Source of the DNA: Haloterrigena salina JCM 13891
Lineage (GTDB): Archaea; Halobacteriota; Halobacteria; Halobacteriales; Natrialbaceae
Direction of reading: 5' to 3'
Assembly (NCBI RefSeq): GCF_000337495.1
Contig: NZ_AOIS01000030.1
Coordinates: 80,865 to 134,209, forward strand
DNA: 53,345 bases
Shown: positions 33,134 through 47,206 of the stretch, in pieces
Layout: every line of letters begins with the position of its first letter
How positions within the stretch are numbered: the first letter of the stretch is position 1
Notes under the pieces: generated by a model
Databases searched by the model: none
The model's input: the letters and a program-made list of their open reading frames with translations, nothing else
What the model was told of the DNA's origin: nothing
Translations under genes and position numbers: made by a program

Positions 33134-34047
33134 CCGTCGTCGTCCTTGCCCTCGACGCGCTCGATGCCGGACTGATCGATCACTTCGACCTCGACGCGTT
33201 CCGCCTCGAGTCGGGCGGCGAGATCGAGACGTTCGCGAACACGCAAGACGTCCCGTACACGCCGGAGGTCTGGGCGACCGTCGCGACCGGGCTCGAGCCG
33301 GCCGAACACGGAATCACTGGCGGCGGGACGAGCGAGTGGCAAAACCCCGCGCTCGATCTCGCCTCGACGGTCACCGGCCACCTCGACGAGTCGACGCGGG
33401 GGACGCTCGGCAAACTGGTCCGCTCCCGAACCGGCACGCGCGAGCGCATCGGCGAGACGGACCGCGAGTCGATGTTCGACGCCGACGACGCGGTCGTCCA
33501 CAACTGGCCGGGCGTCCACGACGGGAAACCCCTCCAGCGGGCCTGGGACCTGATGAACGCCGTCGCGGAGGGGATGCCCCGCAGCGAGTTCGAGCGCGAA
33601 CTGTTCGGGCTCTGCGCCCAGCAGTTCGGCTGGGCCCGCGAGATGCTCGAGCACCCCGTTTCGATCGCCGGGGTCCACGTCCACACGCTGGACGCGGCGG
33701 GCCACGCCTACGCCGACGACGAGGCCGCACTGGGCCGTGCCTACGAACGCGTCGGCGAGTTCGTCCGGGAGATCGTCGCCGCTCTCGGCGAGGACGACGA
33801 CCTCCTCGTCGTCAGCGATCACGGCATGCGAACCGAGTTCTACCCGCCCGACGCCGGCGAGAAGCCGGCGAGCCACTCCTGGCGCGCGTACGCGAGTTCC
33901 ACGGCGGACACGTATCCGAAATCGGTCTTCGACGTGCGCCGGTGGGTCGAAGAACGCGCGGCAGAATCCGGGGCTGGCGCGTCCGACGAAGACGAGGGAA
34001 TCGACATGCCGACCGAACGCCTGCGCGAACTCGGCTATCTCGACTGA
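33130..34047 (+). CDS. AP-superfamily enzyme 3, nucleotide-pyrophosphatase/phosphodiesterase-like
   Basis: A 305-residue protein nearer to the phosphodiesterase/PGM branch than to sulfatases. VVVLALDALDAGLIDHF gives the first metal aspartate. PYTPEVWATVATGLEPAEHG is the T-P-x-x-W-A-[ST]-[VL]-x-T-G loop with threonine nucleophile T44. VHVHTLDAAGHAYADDE and LLVVSDHGMRTEFYPP give the remaining metal ligands. It probably acts on a phosphorylated glycan or nucleotide-sugar, which is inference from context. It ends RLRELGYLD. It closes the coupled run that started at 27004, and a dispersed repeat begins 14 bases after its stop. Confidence 0.83.
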   Translation: MTVVVLALDALDAGLIDHFDLDAFRLESGGEIETFANTQDVPYTPEVWATVATGLEPAEHGITGGGTSEWQNPALDLASTVTGHLDESTRGTLGKLVRSRTGTRERIGETDRESMFDADDAVVHNWPGVHDGKPLQRAWDLMNAVAEGMPRSEFERELFGLCAQQFGWAREMLEHPVSIAGVHVHTLDAAGHAYADDEAALGRAYERVGEFVREIVAALGEDDDLLVVSDHGMRTEFYPPDAGEKPASHSWRAYASSTADTYPKSVFDVRRWVEERAAESGAGASDEDEGIDMPTERLRELGYLD

Positions 34048-34061
34048 TCGCTACTGATGCT

Positions 34062-34310
34062 GTGCTGTGGCGCGCGCTGACGGCTGCCCGAGCGCTAGCG
34101 AGGGCAACCGTCGATACTGCGCGAGGTCTTCGCGAGTAGTGCGGGACCGGAGGTCCCGCATACCATGCGAACGGGCGCGAAGCACCCGTGAGCAGATAGT
34201 ACGAGCGAACGGCTTGAAAGACGCGAAGCGTCTTCCAGTGGATGAGTGAGCGACCACAGGAGCGAATCGGCTGGGGAGGGTGTGGCAATCCCTTGCCGCC
34301 ACGATAGGAG
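34062..34310 (+). repeat. Dispersed intergenic repeat, copy 2 (forward, with internal hairpins)
   Basis: It begins GTGGCGCGCGCTG near 34068 and ends with AGCGAATCGGCTGGGGAGGG plus TGTGGC, as in the other copies. Between these blocks are additional strong hairpins: GCGGGACC-gga-GGTCCCGC-type (around 34141-34159) and AAGACGC-gaa-GCGTCTT (34218-34234). The 60-codon open frame inside is Arg-rich and lies on the repeat itself, so I do not call it a gene. Confidence 0.75.
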
Positions 34311-34893
34311 TCATCCTTCGTCGTCGTTTCTACGGTACTTTGCCGTTCTATTCCTCCATTCAACGTCTGCGCTGTAACTGCCGCCCGTTTACAGGAACAA
34401 TAGTAGGTAGTGCTATTTTTATTCAGAGTAGAGTATGAAACTCGCGGTTAGTACAGGTGGTGTATCTCTCACTACCACTGAGGGGTGACCTACAGTTGTC
34501 AGAAATAGCGTGCTGTATAGAGTTCGGGTAGATACTTGATAAGGACGACAAACTCAGCTATTTGAACCACTCACTGTTGAGCCTTCCATCCCCGTTCAAG
34601 TACCAGCGAAGGTAAGTATAGAGGATAGCAAGTATAACTGCAATCGAAATGGCTGTTCCTATTGGTGCCATATGCAGTCATGCTCATTCATTCTACATGT
34701 GTCTGCCGGTCAATTTGCGCACGTAGTTACCGAACGGTCTGATTCAGTTTCAGGCATGGATCTGAATAAAAACCGTGCTACCATATACTGGAAATAGCGT
34801 CGCATTCAATCCTCGGTGATCCGATTTCGGAGAGTTACCGTCTCGAGTCCGCAACTCCTGACAGTAGTCGGAGTCTGTGTTCCCCTCGAGACG
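34311..34893. other. AT-rich gene-poor island
   Basis: This 580-base stretch is much richer in A+T than the glycan genes on both sides. It includes TATA-like runs (CTATTTTTATTC at 34413-34424, followed by a 17-codon open frame) and one 37-codon membrane-type open frame on the reverse strand. There is no larger gene. Its composition and position next to a tRNA 3'-end fragment suggest a decayed insertion. Confidence 0.5.
34558..34671 (-). CDS. Possible 37-residue single-span membrane peptide
   Basis: An open frame too short for usual gene calling: MAPIGTAISIAVILAILYT, then YLRWYLNGDGRLNSEWFK. The first half is one uninterrupted hydrophobic helix, and the second half is polar and positively charged near the membrane, the layout of a small type III membrane protein. 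It lies in the AT-rich island and has no clear promoter. A chance frame is possible because AT-rich DNA favours hydrophobic codons. Confidence 0.35.
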   Translation of the reverse strand: MAPIGTAISIAVILAILYTYLRWYLNGDGRLNSEWFK

Positions 34894-34914
34894 TAGCGGG
34901 AGGTAGATTTGAAC
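34894..34914 (-). repeat. Detached 3'-end fragment of the initiator tRNA-Met (att-like direct repeat)
   Basis: These 21 bases are identical to 35008-35028, the discriminator base, 3' acceptor strand and most of the T-arm of the tRNA gene, in the same orientation, 114 bases away. Exact copies of a tRNA 3' end next to an intact tRNA are the usual mark left by tyrosine-recombinase elements. The adjoining TTTGAACCA (34908-34916) also has an inverted partner TGGTTCAAA at 34950-34958. Confidence 0.65.
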
Positions 34915-35007
34915 CACGCCGACGTCGGCCGCCTCGCTCCCTCGTCGTCTGGTTCAAACGACCACCGTGCTATACCTGCCGCTCACGAGTTTGTTCGCGC
35001 CAAAACA

Positions 35008-35082
35008 TAGCGGGAGGTAGATTTGAACTACCGGTCTGCGGGTTATGAGCCCGCCGGAATCTCCTGGCTATCCCATCCCGCT
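35008..35082 (-). tRNA. Initiator tRNA-Met (CAU)
   Basis: A complete cloverleaf on the reverse strand: acceptor AGCGGGA/TCCCGCT (35076-35082 with 35009-35015) and discriminator A at 35008. The D-arm is GGAT...TTCC, the anticodon stem GCGGG/CCCGC with loop CTCATAA, and the T-arm GGTAG-TTCAAAT-CTACC. The A1-U72 pair and the three consecutive G-C pairs closing the anticodon loop mark the archaeal initiator rather than the elongator. There is no encoded CCA and no intron. It interrupts the glycan locus. Confidence 0.95.
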
Positions 35083-35337
35083 GTCTTTCACTCTCTGCTG
35101 GTCACGATTAAGGCTTGGTATTCGTCCTGTCTCGAGACGATTAGCTGACACGCATCGCGTGGCCCAGTACGGAGCCGTCAGCGACGGATTACCGCTTGCA
35201 ATCTCCCACGGACCGTTCCGCTCGATGCAATTCGACTCGAGACCGGCCTCTCCAATCCGCCATCCGACGCCGAATCGGACTGTTGTATGTCCGTAGTCTC
35301 CCCATAATTATGCCCCATTCCGGTGGAGACGGGCGCA

Positions 35338-36348
35338 ATGAGAATCCTGCTTTTGCGGACGTGGACGACGAACATCGGGAACGGGTTCATCGACTACGGG
35401 GCGAAGGCGATGCTCGAGCGGGCGTTTCCCGACGCCGAGATCGTCGAGACGGGCGGTTATCCGAACCACGCGGCGGACACCGCGGCGCTGTGGCGGGGCA
35501 CCCGGAAGTTCGAACGGATGGCGGGCCGCGGCGCGGATTACGAGTCGCCGACCCACCGGATTCGGCAGAACGCGGTGAACGTCAGCGAACTGATCGACGC
35601 CGATCTGGCCGTCCTACCGGGCTGCGTGCTCTCCCGGCCGACGTTTCGGAAGTACTTCGACACACTCACCAGACTCAGGGAGCGGGATATTCCGATCGTT
35701 ATCATCGGCGGAGGCGGCGAGGAGTACGACGAGGCCGAGCGAAAGGACGTCGAGGCCGTCTTCGACGCGCTCGACATCGAGGTCCTGCTCACGCGGGACC
35801 GAACCGCCTACGAGGAGTACGGTGACCTCGTCGAGTACCTGTACGACGGCATCGACTGCTCGCTGTTCCTGGGCGACGCACACCAGCCGCCAGAGGCGAA
35901 CCAGGAGTTCGACGTCCACACGTTCGACAAGGGCGAGGAGCCCGATATCGACGGCGCATCGTCGACGATCATCAGGCCCGATCACGCGCCCTTCGACGAA
36001 CCGTACCACTTCCCGGTCGGCGAGCGAGCGCGGGAGCTGCTCGGCCTCGAGACGCCGCTGTTCGAGGAGGAGAACGTCTTCGTCTCCGATATGGTGACCG
36101 ACTACCTCTTCCTCTACGCCAACGCCGACGTGGTGCGCTCGGACCGGATCCACGCCTGCCTGCCCGCCCTGACCTACGGCAACCGGGCGCAGTTCTACTT
36201 CGACACGCCGCGGGCGAACCTCTTCGATCGGGTTCCCATCGAGGGCGACGTCACGAGCGAACCAGTTCGGTTCGATATGGACGAACTCGAGCGGGAGAAA
36301 GAGGCGCAGGTCGAGGCCCTCGAGGAAGGGGTCACGACGGTCCTGTGA
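35338..36348 (+). CDS. Polysaccharide pyruvyl transferase family protein
   Basis: A 336-residue protein with the GT-B-like fold of pyruvyl transferases. The opening MRILLLRTWTTNIGNGFIDY carries the Asn/Gly-rich loop typical of the family. IPIVIIGGGGEEYDEAE is the central glycine-rich strand-turn, and ADVVRSDRIHACLPALTYGN is the conserved R-x-H block. Family members ketalise pyruvate onto sugars in surface polysaccharides and cell-wall glycans. It continues the glycan locus beyond the tRNA. The ATG at 35338 was preferred over 35323, which adds only METGA. Confidence 0.85.
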   Translation: MRILLLRTWTTNIGNGFIDYGAKAMLERAFPDAEIVETGGYPNHAADTAALWRGTRKFERMAGRGADYESPTHRIRQNAVNVSELIDADLAVLPGCVLSRPTFRKYFDTLTRLRERDIPIVIIGGGGEEYDEAERKDVEAVFDALDIEVLLTRDRTAYEEYGDLVEYLYDGIDCSLFLGDAHQPPEANQEFDVHTFDKGEEPDIDGASSTIIRPDHAPFDEPYHFPVGERARELLGLETPLFEEENVFVSDMVTDYLFLYANADVVRSDRIHACLPALTYGNRAQFYFDTPRANLFDRVPIEGDVTSEPVRFDMDELEREKEAQVEALEEGVTTVL

Positions 36349-42741: not shown

Positions 42742-43425
42742 CTATTCGGAGCCGCGAACTCGCTCGAGGACGGCCAGCGTCCCATCCGCGTGAACGTCCG
42801 CGAGTACCTCGTCGGCCGCCGCTTTCGCCGTCTCGTCGGCGTTGGCGACGGCGAAGCTCCGGCCGACGGCCTCGAACGTCGAGACGTCGTTGATCGAGTC
42901 GCCCACCGCGACGGTTCGCTCGAGGTCGATACCGACGTGCTCGGCGATCGTCTCGAGGCCGTCGCCCTTGTTCGGCGCGGCGTCCTTGACATGGTAGGCG
43001 TAGCCGGTGTCGATCACCTCGAGGCCGTAGTCCGCGGCGATCTCGCGAAGGGGGTCGACGGGTTGGTCAAGGTTCACCGCGATCTCGGTCTCGCGCCACC
43101 GATTGACGGTGTTCTCTGGCCCCCAGCCCGTCTCGTAGCCGGCCGCGCGGTAGTCCTCGAGGACGGCCTGGGCGGCCGCGCGGTCGGCGGTGACAAAGAC
43201 GTCGTCGCCGGTGTAGACGACACCGCCGTTCTCGGCGACGACGAGTTCGGGGATGCCCACGAAGTGACAGAGGGCAACGGGGTAGGGGAAGGCTTTCCCG
43301 GTGGCGATCACCACGGGCGCGTCCCAGTCGCGGAGGGGGTCGAAGACGCGCGGATCGATGCCCCACCCCTCCGGGCGGGTGAGCGTGCCGTCGATGTCGA
43401 GGACCAGCGGCGGATCGTCCGTCAT
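42742..43425 (-). CDS. HAD-family phosphatase, archaeal phosphoglycolate phosphatase type
   Basis: A 227-residue haloacid-dehalogenase hydrolase of Cof type. LVLDIDGTLTRPEGWG is motif I with the nucleophilic aspartate, VIATGKAFPYPVALCH is motif II, KGDGLETIAEHVGIDL carries the motif III lysine, and AVGDSINDVSTFEAVG is motif IV. The type IIB cap lies between. Archaeal relatives hydrolyse phosphoglycolate; sucrose- or mannosyl-phosphate phosphatases are close alternatives. ATG 43425 was preferred to an in-frame GTG at 43434. Its gap to the upstream dps operon is about 470 bases. Confidence 0.85.
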   Translation of the reverse strand: MTDDPPLVLDIDGTLTRPEGWGIDPRVFDPLRDWDAPVVIATGKAFPYPVALCHFVGIPELVVAENGGVVYTGDDVFVTADRAAAQAVLEDYRAAGYETGWGPENTVNRWRETEIAVNLDQPVDPLREIAADYGLEVIDTGYAYHVKDAAPNKGDGLETIAEHVGIDLERTVAVGDSINDVSTFEAVGRSFAVANADETAKAAADEVLADVHADGTLAVLERVRGSE

Positions 43426-43892
43426 GGCCGTCACTCGAGGGCTGGGCGACCTAAAGGAGTCGGTTCAGCGCGCTCGAGACAGAGGGATCGGTCAGTGACG
43501 ACGCCCGGCCACCCGATCTCATTCGAACGCCTGCTCGAGCAGTAGATCGGAGCGCGGTTTCGTTATTCATAGCCCTATCCGAAACTGAATCGGGGCGGTT
43601 CGCTAAGTACGTGTGCGCACTGACTGATGCGGACTCAACGGTGATATCGTGGCAGTCTGTGTCCATCTAGTCGATGAGCCCGCGCTCTGAGCTGTGAATC
43701 CGTTTTCGGACGGGGGAGGACGGTGCGAACCCGTCTAAAAGACGCTCATCGAGTCGAACTCTCGGTTACGCAGTACCGTCTCAATCGGGACGTGCGTTTT
43801 CGCACATCGAACCAATTGCCGGTGACTTCGATCCCGAGTATCGGTGAAATCTTGATGAATCGAATCCGACGGGGGGTGTCTCCCGAGGCAAT
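43426..43892. other. Intergenic region of 467 bases with a possible structured element
   Basis: The region lies between dps copy 3 and the HAD phosphatase, both leftward. Positions 43671-43752 can fold: TCGATGAGC pairs with GCTCATCGA at the ends, with inner hairpins TCCG-TTTT-CGGA (43699-43710) and GACGG-TGCGAAC-CCGTC (43719-43735). A separate hairpin GTGCG-tttt-CGCAC (43792-43805) lies 88 bases after the dps stop and may be its 3' end. The open frame at 43723-43911 looks spurious. Confidence 0.4.
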
Positions 43893-44462
43893 TCACCTCG
43901 TTGCGTCGTGACGAACGAGCGTCTCGTCAGCGAGGTACCGATCGAGGACGTGAGCGTCCGCTTCGAGCGTCTTGAGATGGCGACGCAGGAGTTCGCTCGT
44001 CGCCGTATCCCCGAGTCGGTCCGCCAGTTCGATGTGTTCGCGCCACTGCACCGCGAGCGTCGCGTACCCATCGAGGTCGCGCTCGAGCGACGAGCGGATA
44101 TCGTAGTGATGGGCGTCTTCGATGAATATCGGCGCGTGTTGGCGGATACCCATCGGCCCGCAGGCCGGGACACCGCCGAGCGCGGTGATCCGAATGGCGA
44201 TGTCGTCGGTCATCTCCGTGAGCCGGTCGGCGGCATCCTCGAGGAAGTCACTGATCGGCTTCGATTCGGTCCCCTCGACGAGCCAGTACTGCTTGCGCAC
44301 CTGATTGAAGAGGATATACAGTCCCGATACTTCGCTGTTCAAGGCCCTGACCAACTCTTCGGCGGCGTTCTGTTCGAGTCGGAGCCCGTTGTCGGCTACC
44401 GTGTCCCATTCCTGACGGATGTGAGACGAGTCGGGGCACCAGAGATGGGGTGTTCTCATCAT
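43893..44462 (-). CDS. Dps-family paralogue C, ferroxidase site degenerate
   Basis: A 189-residue ferritin-like four-helix protein of the Dps family, third in a tandem operon. Aligned with the canonical copy at 45054-45602, the ferroxidase ligand histidine before Trp is Tyr (Y59), the second histidine is Ser (S71) and the last glutamate is Ile (I90), while E75 and D86 remain. The dinuclear iron site is therefore probably lost. The ATG at 44462 overlaps the stop of copy B (ATGA). It could be a structural partner in a mixed shell, a DNA binder or a ligand-binding protein; none is shown. Confidence 0.8.
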   Translation of the reverse strand: MMRTPHLWCPDSSHIRQEWDTVADNGLRLEQNAAEELVRALNSEVSGLYILFNQVRKQYWLVEGTESKPISDFLEDAADRLTEMTDDIAIRITALGGVPACGPMGIRQHAPIFIEDAHHYDIRSSLERDLDGYATLAVQWREHIELADRLGDTATSELLRRHLKTLEADAHVLDRYLADETLVRHDATR

Positions 44463-45040
44463 CGTTCTTTCAGCACCGCCGCTCGAACGAGCGTGTCATC
44501 TTCGAGTAATTGCTCGATGACGTGCGCGTCCTCTTCGAGGCCTTCGAGGTGGTTACGGAGCAGTTCGGCCGTGCCCGGGTCGGCTTTCTCTTCCGCGAGA
44601 GCGACGTGTTCACGCATGCTGACGATCAGGGTCGAATATCCCTCGAGATCTCCCTTCAAAGAGGCACGAAGGTCGTAGAGATCCTCGGCCTCGAGGTGGA
44701 CTTCGGCCCGTTCCTGCAGTGTCGGCGGTGTGTTCGGGGGAATCCCGCCCAGTTCAACGATCCGAATCGCGAGCTCGTCGTTAACCTCGCGCACGAGCTT
44801 GTACGCGTCCTCGAGGAAGGTAGCGACCGCCTCGTGTTCGGCACCTGCAGCGGTCCAGTAATGCTTGCGAAGCAGGTAGAACAGGTTGAACGATCCTGCG
44901 TGGTCGATACTCAAGGCGTCGACGATCACCTCGGCATCGGCGGGGTGGATCCGGAGTGCGTTTTCCGCGATAGTGCCCCACTCTTGACGGCGCTCGCCCG
45001 TATCGGGTTCCCGAACGAGTCGGCCTTGTTTTTGTGCCAT
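44459..45040 (-). CDS. Dps-family paralogue B, ferroxidase site degenerate
   Basis: A 193-residue Dps-like protein, second in the operon, 13 bases after copy A. The Dps frame is clear (AENALRIHPADAEVIVDALS, FYLLRKHYWTAAGAEHEAVA, FLEDAYKLVREVNDELAIRI). The ligands have changed: His before Trp is Tyr (Y61), the second His is Ala (A73) and the last Glu is Ile (I92), with E77 and D88 kept. The same Tyr and Ile occur in copy C, so B and C probably descend from one altered ancestor. Its N-terminus is about nine residues longer than copy A and basic, a possible DNA contact. Confidence 0.8.
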   Translation of the reverse strand: MAQKQGRLVREPDTGERRQEWGTIAENALRIHPADAEVIVDALSIDHAGSFNLFYLLRKHYWTAAGAEHEAVATFLEDAYKLVREVNDELAIRIVELGGIPPNTPPTLQERAEVHLEAEDLYDLRASLKGDLEGYSTLIVSMREHVALAEEKADPGTAELLRNHLEGLEEDAHVIEQLLEDDTLVRAAVLKER

Positions 45041-45053
45041 TCAGGTCACCTAT

Positions 45054-45602
45054 TCAGTGAGTGGCACTCTCGAGGACCAGCGTGTCGTCTTCGAGGTAGT
45101 GCTCGAAGTGGTGGCCGTCTTCCTCGAGGTGGACGAGGATCTCGCGGAGCATCTCGCCGGTCGCAGGGTCACCGAGGTTCTCGGCGAGTTCGATGCTGCC
45201 GCGCATCGACTCGATGATGTCGCCGTACATCTCGAGGTCGTTCTCGAACATCGTGCGGACGTCGTAGACGTCCTCACCCTCGAACTCGACGGTCGCGCGG
45301 TCCTCGAGGTTTGTCGGTCCCGAGACGGGGACGCCGCCCAGGGCTTGGGCGCGCTCGGCGATCTCGTCGGCCCCCTCTTCGACGTGTTCGTAGGCGTCCT
45401 CGAGGAACTCGTGAAGCGGGAGGAACTCGGCGCCTTCGACGACCCAGTGGTGTTTCTTGAGCTGGTGGTAGAGGACGTACGAGTTCGCCAGTTCGGAGTT
45501 TAGCGCCTCCACGATCTGCTCGGCTTTGTCTTGATCGAGCCGGAGAGCGTTTTCATCGACGGTGCCTGCCTGTTGACGGACGGTTGTCTCTTGGGAACTC
45601 AT
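45054..45602 (-). CDS. dpsA: DpsA, canonical iron-oxidising Dps protein
   Basis: A 182-residue Dps (12-subunit shell) that oxidises Fe(II) with peroxide and stores iron. All ferroxidase ligands of the haloarchaeal DpsA pattern are visible: H52 (KKHHW), H64 (LPLHEF), E68, D79 and E83 (ADEIAER). It is the first gene of the three-gene dps operon. A TATA-like GGTATATG on the reverse strand (about 45630) lies about 28 bases before the ATG, consistent with a leaderless transcript. Two inverted repeats around and upstream of that box may be stress or iron operators. Confidence 0.95.
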   Translation of the reverse strand: MSSQETTVRQQAGTVDENALRLDQDKAEQIVEALNSELANSYVLYHQLKKHHWVVEGAEFLPLHEFLEDAYEHVEEGADEIAERAQALGGVPVSGPTNLEDRATVEFEGEDVYDVRTMFENDLEMYGDIIESMRGSIELAENLGDPATGEMLREILVHLEEDGHHFEHYLEDDTLVLESATH

Positions 45603-45631
45603 TGCATGGGTATACTCGATCGACCTTCATA

Positions 45632-45644
45632 TACCTTTCAGGTA
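45632..45644. promoter_or_regulatory. Palindrome overlapping the dpsA core promoter
   Basis: TACCT-TTC-AGGTA: five-base perfect arms, 30-42 bases upstream of the dpsA ATG and overlapping the TATA-like box. Protein bound here would block TBP, so it is a plausible repressor site. Confidence 0.4.
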
Positions 45645-45652
45645 CTGAATAC

Positions 45653-45668
45653 TTTTGGGGAGCCTAAA
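45653..45668. promoter_or_regulatory. DtxR-like inverted repeat upstream of dpsA
   Basis: TTTTGG-GGAG-CCTAAA: six-base arms with one mismatch, about 50-65 bases upstream of the ATG. It resembles the TTAGG...CCTAA operators of DtxR/SirR/Idr metal regulators, which govern iron genes in haloarchaea. The match is by eye only. Confidence 0.4.
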
Positions 45669-45770: not shown

Positions 45771-46562
45771 CTAGACCAGTGCGATCACGATGACGGTACT
45801 TCCGGCGGCGCCGGCGAGAACTCCGACCGCACGTGCCAGTTGTTCGCCCCACGAAACCGTCCGCTCGAGCGAGAGCACGACCGCGATGAGCGCCATCCAG
45901 ACAAGATTCATCGAGCCCACGATCACCATGAACGCGAACAGCGCCCAACAACACCCGACGCAGAAGACGCTGAACTGCCAGCTCATCCGAACGGCACCGC
46001 ACACCCCCGGTCGATAGTGGCCAAGAAGGAACCCGAGCGGCGACCGGCAATACCGCAGACATCGGTATTTGTACGGTGAGAGCTGGTACCCCGACAAGAG
46101 CAGCAACGACCCGCCCACCAGGAGCCCGCCGTGGGCGTTCGCGAGGGTGACGATCGGCACCAGCGCGTTAACGACGAGCGGGACGATTCCCGTCAGCGTC
46201 CACACGAGCGCGTACGTTCCGACAAACGCCCCGACTCGCGCTGCTTTCCCCGCGGTCGTCGTCCCCTCGAGCGTCTCGGCGTACAGCCGGAAGAGCGGGA
46301 CCGACGAGGGATACATCATGGCGATCATCATCACTCCCCACATGAGCAGGTAGAGACCGATACCGGTCGGTCCGTTCGAGACGGCCATCGCCTCCGGTGC
46401 TCCCGGATCGGACAGCTGCAACTCCGTCTGTCCGCCAGACATCGGGAGCCACCGACCGACGACCGCCGCCCACGCGAGCAACGCGATTGCGTACGTAACG
46501 AGCGCGACGATCGGAACGTGTCGGCGGGTGATCCGGTCTCGAAACGAGTCGTGTCTCCCCAT
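45771..46562 (-). CDS. DUF2182-family integral membrane protein (predicted metal-binding)
   Basis: A 263-residue protein with about seven predicted helices. Family landmarks are WGVMMIAMMYPSSVPLFRLY (Met-rich helix, about 75-94), SGYQLSPYKYRCLRYCRSP (about 157-175, with a CxxxC) and VFCVGCCWALFAFMVIVGSM (about 198-217, Cys-rich helix), then NLVWMALIAVV. The Met/Cys/His content suggests a soft-metal site in the membrane. It follows the DUF1326 gene by 32 bases on the same strand; these two families recur together. MGRHDSFRDR at 46562 was chosen; the longer frame is a shadow of DUF1326. Confidence 0.88.
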   Translation of the reverse strand: MGRHDSFRDRITRRHVPIVALVTYAIALLAWAAVVGRWLPMSGGQTELQLSDPGAPEAMAVSNGPTGIGLYLLMWGVMMIAMMYPSSVPLFRLYAETLEGTTTAGKAARVGAFVGTYALVWTLTGIVPLVVNALVPIVTLANAHGGLLVGGSLLLLSGYQLSPYKYRCLRYCRSPLGFLLGHYRPGVCGAVRMSWQFSVFCVGCCWALFAFMVIVGSMNLVWMALIAVVLSLERTVSWGEQLARAVGVLAGAAGSTVIVIALV

Positions 46563-46594
46563 GGTAGATCGTCCGTATCGCCGTCGTTCCGTCC

Positions 46595-47206
46595 TCAGGA
46601 GTTCGCCAGTTCGAAGTCTCCGAGGTAGGCGTTGTTCCCCGAAACGTCCCACGTGAACTGGTCGTCGTAGGAGACGGTGGCCGTGGTCGACTTGCCGGTC
46701 TGCACCTCGAGACTCTCGGTCAGCGGGTGGGGAGAGACCGTCCCGACCTCCTCGTTGAACCCGACCGCGCCGCTCGCGTCCATCTCGATGGCGTCCCCGA
46801 CCTCGACGGTGAAGTCCGATCCGTCCCGCGAGAAGCTGATCGGAGCGGTCGCGACGTCGACGGACCGGACGTGCGTATCGGCGACGGGCGCCCAGATCCC
46901 GCCGGCGCGGCCGGAATAGATGTCTTCGATGGCCTCGCGCTGGTCGTCGTCGGCCGTTTCGTCGACGAGTAACACGATGTCCCACTCCGTCTCGGGGGCG
47001 AACATGACGCCCTCATCGGTCGAAATGAGCATGCCGACGTCTACCCCACTCAAGTCGACATCGCCGTAGCTCCCGTCCTCGATGTGCCACGCCAGCGAGA
47101 CGGTACAGACGTCGTCGTCCGGCGGTTCCAGCCATATACACTGACAGGCGACGTCGCAGTTGCAGGCTTCGACGTAGTCTCCCTTGATGATCCACTCGTT
47201 TGCCAT
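46595..47206 (-). CDS. DUF1326-family cysteine-rich protein
   Basis: A 203-residue protein. It opens IIKGDYVEACNCDVACQCIW, with four cysteines at residues 15, 17, 21 and 23 (CxCxxxCxC) and a fifth at 33, a probable metal- or thiol-redox site. The remainder is beta-rich (LAWHIEDGSYGDVDLSGVDV, DIVLLVDETADDDQREAI, FTVEVGDAIEMDASGAVGF). No signal peptide is present. It is the first gene of an operon with the DUF2182 membrane protein. The short palindrome AACAC-c-GTGTT at 47212-47222 lies immediately before the ATG. Biochemical function unknown. Confidence 0.88.
   Translation of the reverse strand: MANEWIIKGDYVEACNCDVACQCIWLEPPDDDVCTVSLAWHIEDGSYGDVDLSGVDVGMLISTDEGVMFAPETEWDIVLLVDETADDDQREAIEDIYSGRAGGIWAPVADTHVRSVDVATAPISFSRDGSDFTVEVGDAIEMDASGAVGFNEEVGTVSPHPLTESLEVQTGKSTTATVSYDDQFTWDVSGNNAYLGDFELANS

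Follow-up and report, generated by a model that had tools for sequence, protein, structure and literature searches.

In Haloterrigena salina we have found two adjacent genes of the Dps family, B and C, whose products keep the Dps fold and have lost the residues of the ferroxidase centre. They follow an ordinary DpsA gene, A, in a single operon. To judge from related genomes the conserved unit is B+C, not A+B+C. On the whole we consider it probable that the two proteins form an obligate B:C heteromer, a shell devoid of ferroxidase centres, either alone or mixed with DpsA. A more detailed version seems to us slightly less secure, but still somewhat more likely than not: a silent mini-ferritin of obligate B:C composition (fused in some species), which would be induced by iron, would use its two-fold interface for structure and would work with DpsA or beside it.

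The three genes and their ferroxidase residues

The window, which is the whole stretch of 53,345 nucleotides analysed, has the three genes on its minus strand. Gene A (45054–45602) codes for an ordinary haloarchaeal DpsA of 182 aa, with the ferroxidase residues H52, H64, E72, D79 and E83 in place. Gene B (44459–45040, 193 aa) codes for a Dps paralogue in which Y52, A64, K72, R75 and I83 replace H, H, E, E and E; D79 is kept. Gene C (43893–44462, 189 aa) is a second paralogue, with Y52, S64, D72, T75 and I83, and it also keeps D79. A spacer of 13 bases (45041–45053, minus strand) separates A from B and is equally long in most related genomes whose operon begins with A; B and C overlap by the four bases ATGA (44459–44462, minus strand). 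The three coupled frames are all intact; their coordinates, strand, gap and junction are those given in an earlier note on this DNA.

A domain search finds the ferritin domain in A, B and C. Their best solved relative is in all cases DpsA of H. salinarum (1moj), with E values of 1.7e-64, 1.4e-36 and 3.5e-37 respectively, so that the three proteins belong to the Dps/DpsA fold: a four-helix ferritin-like structure with Dps relatives as top matches. AlphaFold2 models of single B and C chains are Dps folds nearest to 1moj, with a mean pLDDT of 78; the helical cores are mostly above 90, the tails and one loop are low. The NCBIfam equivalog for haloarchaeal DpsA (NF041388, curated cut-off 170 bits) gives scores of 292.7 for A, 176.9 for B and 184.8 bits for C. 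All are above the cut-off, and therefore B and C would be annotated as DpsA. This label overstates their function, as they do not have the ferroxidase residues, and it hides a two-gene version of Dps devoid of a ferroxidase centre.

At positions 52, 64, 68, 79 and 83 the window proteins have H/H/E/D/E in A, Y/A/E/D/I in B and Y/S/E/D/I in C. The earlier note counted these five as the ligands of A. H52, H64, D79 and E83 can be retained: together with E75 they are invariant among 52 DpsA proteins. Position 68 has to be dropped, since it varies in the same proteins (E, G, Q or D) and is G in H. salinarum DpsA; E72 is conserved instead (90%) and is lost in B and C. Three A proteins from trios with G or A at position 72 have D at 68, so that these two positions look like alternatives. 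When the centre is defined by H52, H64, D68 or E72, D79 and E83, the complete set is found in A and is not found in B or C. The loss of the centre from two paralogues, which was the main claim of the note, is thus confirmed: both histidines as well as E72 and E75 are replaced in the B and C of the window, and the alignments show no alternative set of His/Glu ligands elsewhere. As to the two middle acidic residues which B and C were said to keep, the statement is right for D79 and wrong for position 68, which is no conserved ligand. D79 is the only ferroxidase residue reliably kept in both proteins.

Other members of the two groups have similar features. At position 72 most B proteins have K, and the C proteins have D; position 75 is R in all 35 B proteins and T, S or A in C. 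At position 83 we find V in 12, I in 10 and E in 9 of the 35 B proteins, and I, V or L in almost all C. Tyr52 is present in 31 of 35 B and 26 of 36 C proteins. The Tyr/Ile pair common to B and C had been taken as a sign of selection. Selection does act on both genes, as discussed in the next section, but the pair is a weak argument for it, because Tyr52 fits the shared ancestry of a single B+C clade and Ile83 is absent from most B proteins. His165, reported as an additional metal ligand in the centre of H. salinarum DpsA (PMC7327923), is retained in A and is Val in the B and C of the window. Glu154, the nucleation residue of the same protein (PMC12532284), is not conserved in C; N or R is found at this position in the window B and C. 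The N-terminal signatures are conserved in both groups, LVREP..G.RRQEWGT in B (44462–45040) and STPHLR.P...RQEW in C (43896–44462). A Trp at position 12 of these signatures is absent from DpsA; the N-termini are of low confidence in the models. From these residues B and C are relatives by fold which stand outside the catalytic DpsA.

The genome also carries two further DpsA copies of catalytic type (L002, C69 and L003, C60), one 91% and the other about 71% identical to A. In the window, a HAD-type phosphatase (PF08282) is found downstream of the trio (42742–43434, minus strand). Upstream (45771–47206, minus strand) there are overlapping genes of a PpoB2-type copper chaperone/DUF2182 (PF09948) and of DUF1326 (PF07040), probably a separate metal-related pair. 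A region with a G+C content of 0.58, compared with about 0.67, is found at 34001–36000 and is possibly foreign DNA. A search for conserved neighbours as a clue to function gave none beyond A, B and C themselves; widely shared clusters near the trio were rejected, as they are antisense or shadow frames of the trio.

Distribution, origin and selection of B and C

B-type and C-type proteins are found in the same 37 genomes, from several families, out of 392 haloarchaeal genomes which include that of the window. The conservation of the pair in all of these genomes excludes chance. In the 37 genomes B and C either overlap by 4 bases or are separated by 1–2 bases, with the exception of two damaged loci: Halarchaeum rubridurum (L102/L147) has an interrupted B frame and G282 (L092) a degenerate B-C pair. 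About 35 of the 37 genomes have intact pairs. In our species collection every carrier is a haloarchaeon: Natrinema, Saliphagus (with about 370 bases between B and C), Halopenitus, Halorubrum, Halorubellus, Natronorubrum, Haloarcula, Natronococcus, Halobium, Halegenticoccus, Halogranum, Halarchaeum and Halolamina. An adjacent A is present in 24 of the 37 genomes and absent in 13. A survey of the order A-B-C had been proposed in the earlier note; the link between B and C holds in it, while A is not a fixed member.

In two species the pair has become a single gene. B and C are read as one uninterrupted frame in Halogranum amylolyticum (L143; 396 aa) and in Halogranum rubrum (L138; 417 aa), and the linkers of the two proteins differ in length and sequence. 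Among 170 genomes of that family, a search gave two matches which are free of stops over the full fusion. Both are in one genus: G410, which is 100% identical to the query, and G411. The third long match (G464) is broken by an internal stop, as expected of adjacent genes which are not fused. The fusion of genes which are otherwise always adjacent is the strongest sequence evidence that their products share one particle; it is known from one genus and points to their association only indirectly. We consider it very probable that B and C pair physically.

The likelihood tree (quick search, SH-aLRT support) places B in one clade (99), C in one clade (98) and B+C together in one clade (100), which is found inside DpsA. 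Both genes go back to one duplication of a DpsA which had already diverged. The A genes are ordinary DpsA, from more than one lineage across genomes; the A of the window clusters with standalone DpsA of its own family. In the trio genomes the distances of B and C are correlated with r 0.97 (partial 0.92 given A), compared with 0.76 for both A-B and A-C.

Such data also bear on the closest rival of the B:C heteromer, namely that B and C are accessory subunits which assemble mainly with A, in mixed A/B/C shells which would dilute or position the ferroxidase sites. A heads the pair in roughly two thirds of the genomes, and the A-B spacer has been preserved even though the A genes come from different DpsA lineages. 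In the general geometry of Dps, Lys72 and Arg75 of B would complement Glu75 and Glu72 of A over the two-fold axis. However the other 13 genomes have no adjacent A, the divergence of A follows that of B and C less closely, and the natural fusion links B with C, not with A. We consider this reading unlikely, but it does not exclude a B:C heteromer.

Both genes are under selection. Nine close relatives give median dN/dS values of 0.10 (A), 0.17 (B) and 0.19 (C), far below 1; the near-neutral rates which the earlier note had named as an objection do not appear. The number of positions with at least 95% identity is 53 in B and 50 in C, compared with 61 in DpsA. Each clade has its own invariant residues along helices A and B at the old site, including R75 of B and D72 of C. 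That B and C are decaying duplicates, retained by chance beside dpsA, is hardly credible in our opinion: the broken copies are few (B in H. rubridurum and the pair of G282), whereas the dN/dS values of the intact copies, the invariant residues of each clade and the intact pairs of several families contradict it. Pseudogene decay was rejected on the dN/dS values.

Iron operator and assembly of the shell

An operator-like palindrome TTTAGGCTCCCCAAAA lies 51–66 bases upstream of gene A (45653–45668, minus strand) and matches TTTAGGNNNNCCTAAA in 11 of 12 positions. Between the operator and gene A there is a TATA-like element GGTATATGA (45628–45636, minus strand), detected by eye. Allowing up to 3 mismatches in 12, the palindrome TTTAGGNNNNCCTAAA is found upstream of 21 of the 24 A-headed operons, that of the window included, and of 5 of the 13 B-headed ones; the pattern was read off these same operons, so that the shuffle tests are partly circular. 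As an independent check, the whole genome was scanned and gave 24 sites in the genome of the window and 2 for the reversed pattern. Several of these palindromes are paired, 34–36 bases apart. The C60 copy of DpsA has one about 0.6 kb downstream.

The site is common to iron and siderophore genes of the genome. From eight of ten operator neighbourhoods (L152–L161) ten proteins were tested: three siderophore-type binding proteins, an ABC ATPase, a class-III aminotransferase, a PLP decarboxylase, a ZIP transporter, a hemerythrin/ScdA protein, another DpsA and a methyltransferase with no evident link to iron. Siderophore synthesis genes are probably included among the genes near the sites. We consider the approximately 24 sites as a candidate iron regulon, and the Dps operon as a part of this predicted regulon, of DtxR type. 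In the (A)BC operons the operator is found upstream of the TATA-like element. In three lipoprotein genes (one a binding protein confirmed by Pfam, the other two alike by eye) it ends 4–5 bases before the start codon, and in other regulon genes it lies further upstream. By analogy with DtxR/IdeR, these positions relative to TATA and start codon suggest that iron activates the Dps operon and represses the uptake genes. Plentiful iron would then induce the operon.

In Dps each dimer builds two iron-oxidising sites across the two-fold axis: residues 52, 64 and 68/72 of one subunit lie opposite residues 79 and 83 of its partner, and the B helices are antiparallel. Residue 72 of one chain thus faces residue 75 of the other. 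B and C most likely pair across this axis. The metal ligands of the interface would give way to hydrophobic and charged residues, for example Arg75 of B facing Asp72 of C, so that a B:C dimer would hold no canonical ferroxidase centre. Charge does not favour C over A as a partner, since Arg75 and Lys72 of B face Glu72 and Glu75 of A equally well. The dimers would assemble into a shell of 12 subunits, unaided or with DpsA, either that of gene A or another one of the genome. The frequent presence of A in front of the pair indicates that it may belong to the particle. Mixed shells with DpsA are a likely mechanism; in them B:C would leave each shell with fewer catalytic sites, an effect much like that of L chains in mammalian ferritin.

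Covariation of positions was dropped as proof of the B:C interface. The raw signal of B83 with C64 is suggestive (99.3rd percentile among B-C column pairs), but it comes from about three independent changes, with which a tree-based test has no power. The parallel predicted contact, B83 with C52, shows no covariation (5.7th percentile among B-C column pairs), and an antiparallel sum-rule scan of the B-C columns shows no clear peak.

A further reading is that the old site of B:C now binds something else, whether another metal, a cofactor or a small molecule, or has acquired a different activity. Asp79 is kept, as is Tyr52 in B, and there are new invariant residues around the site. However the residues at one of the two predicted sites (C52, C64, B83) change freely and include K, R, G, A and S, and no complete new set of ligands is conserved; we find this reading quite improbable. 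The binding of DNA by B and C, which had also been suggested, finds no support: the mean net charge per subunit is −22 in B, −14 in C and −33 in DpsA, so that both proteins stay acidic, though less than DpsA.

Comparison with known systems

The usual picture of Dps is that of a homo-oligomer with its catalytic site between identical subunits. In the open-licence literature searched, no heteromeric Dps and no Dps devoid of ferroxidase was found. If our proposal is true, it would show a use of the Dps shell apart from iron oxidation. The Halogranum fusion protein, or the co-expression of B and C, makes the idea of a silent Dps directly testable.

In vertebrate ferritin, H and L chains form a heteromeric cage from a catalytic subunit and a non-catalytic relative. 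The likeness is that a catalytic subunit and its non-catalytic relatives could also share one shell here. However vertebrate ferritin differs from B and C in subfamily and shell size, and in having an acidic nucleation patch on its L chains.

Among solved structures, DpsA of H. salinarum (1moj/1tjo; NF041388) stands nearest to A, B and C; it has the same fold and the ferroxidase residues found in A. B and C differ from it by the absence of both histidines, E72, E75 and, mostly in the case of B, E83; they also form two separate clades which are always encoded together. A heteromeric cage has been shown for the bacterioferritins Bfr1/Bfr2 of Magnetospirillum and Shewanella (PMC6529640, PMC12120770). 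As in B and C, two adjacent genes code for functionally different subunits and a ferroxidase centre is mutated, in this case in one of them. The bacterioferritins have 24 subunits and heme, and one partner is without the centre, whereas B and C belong to the 12-subunit Dps family and both are without it.
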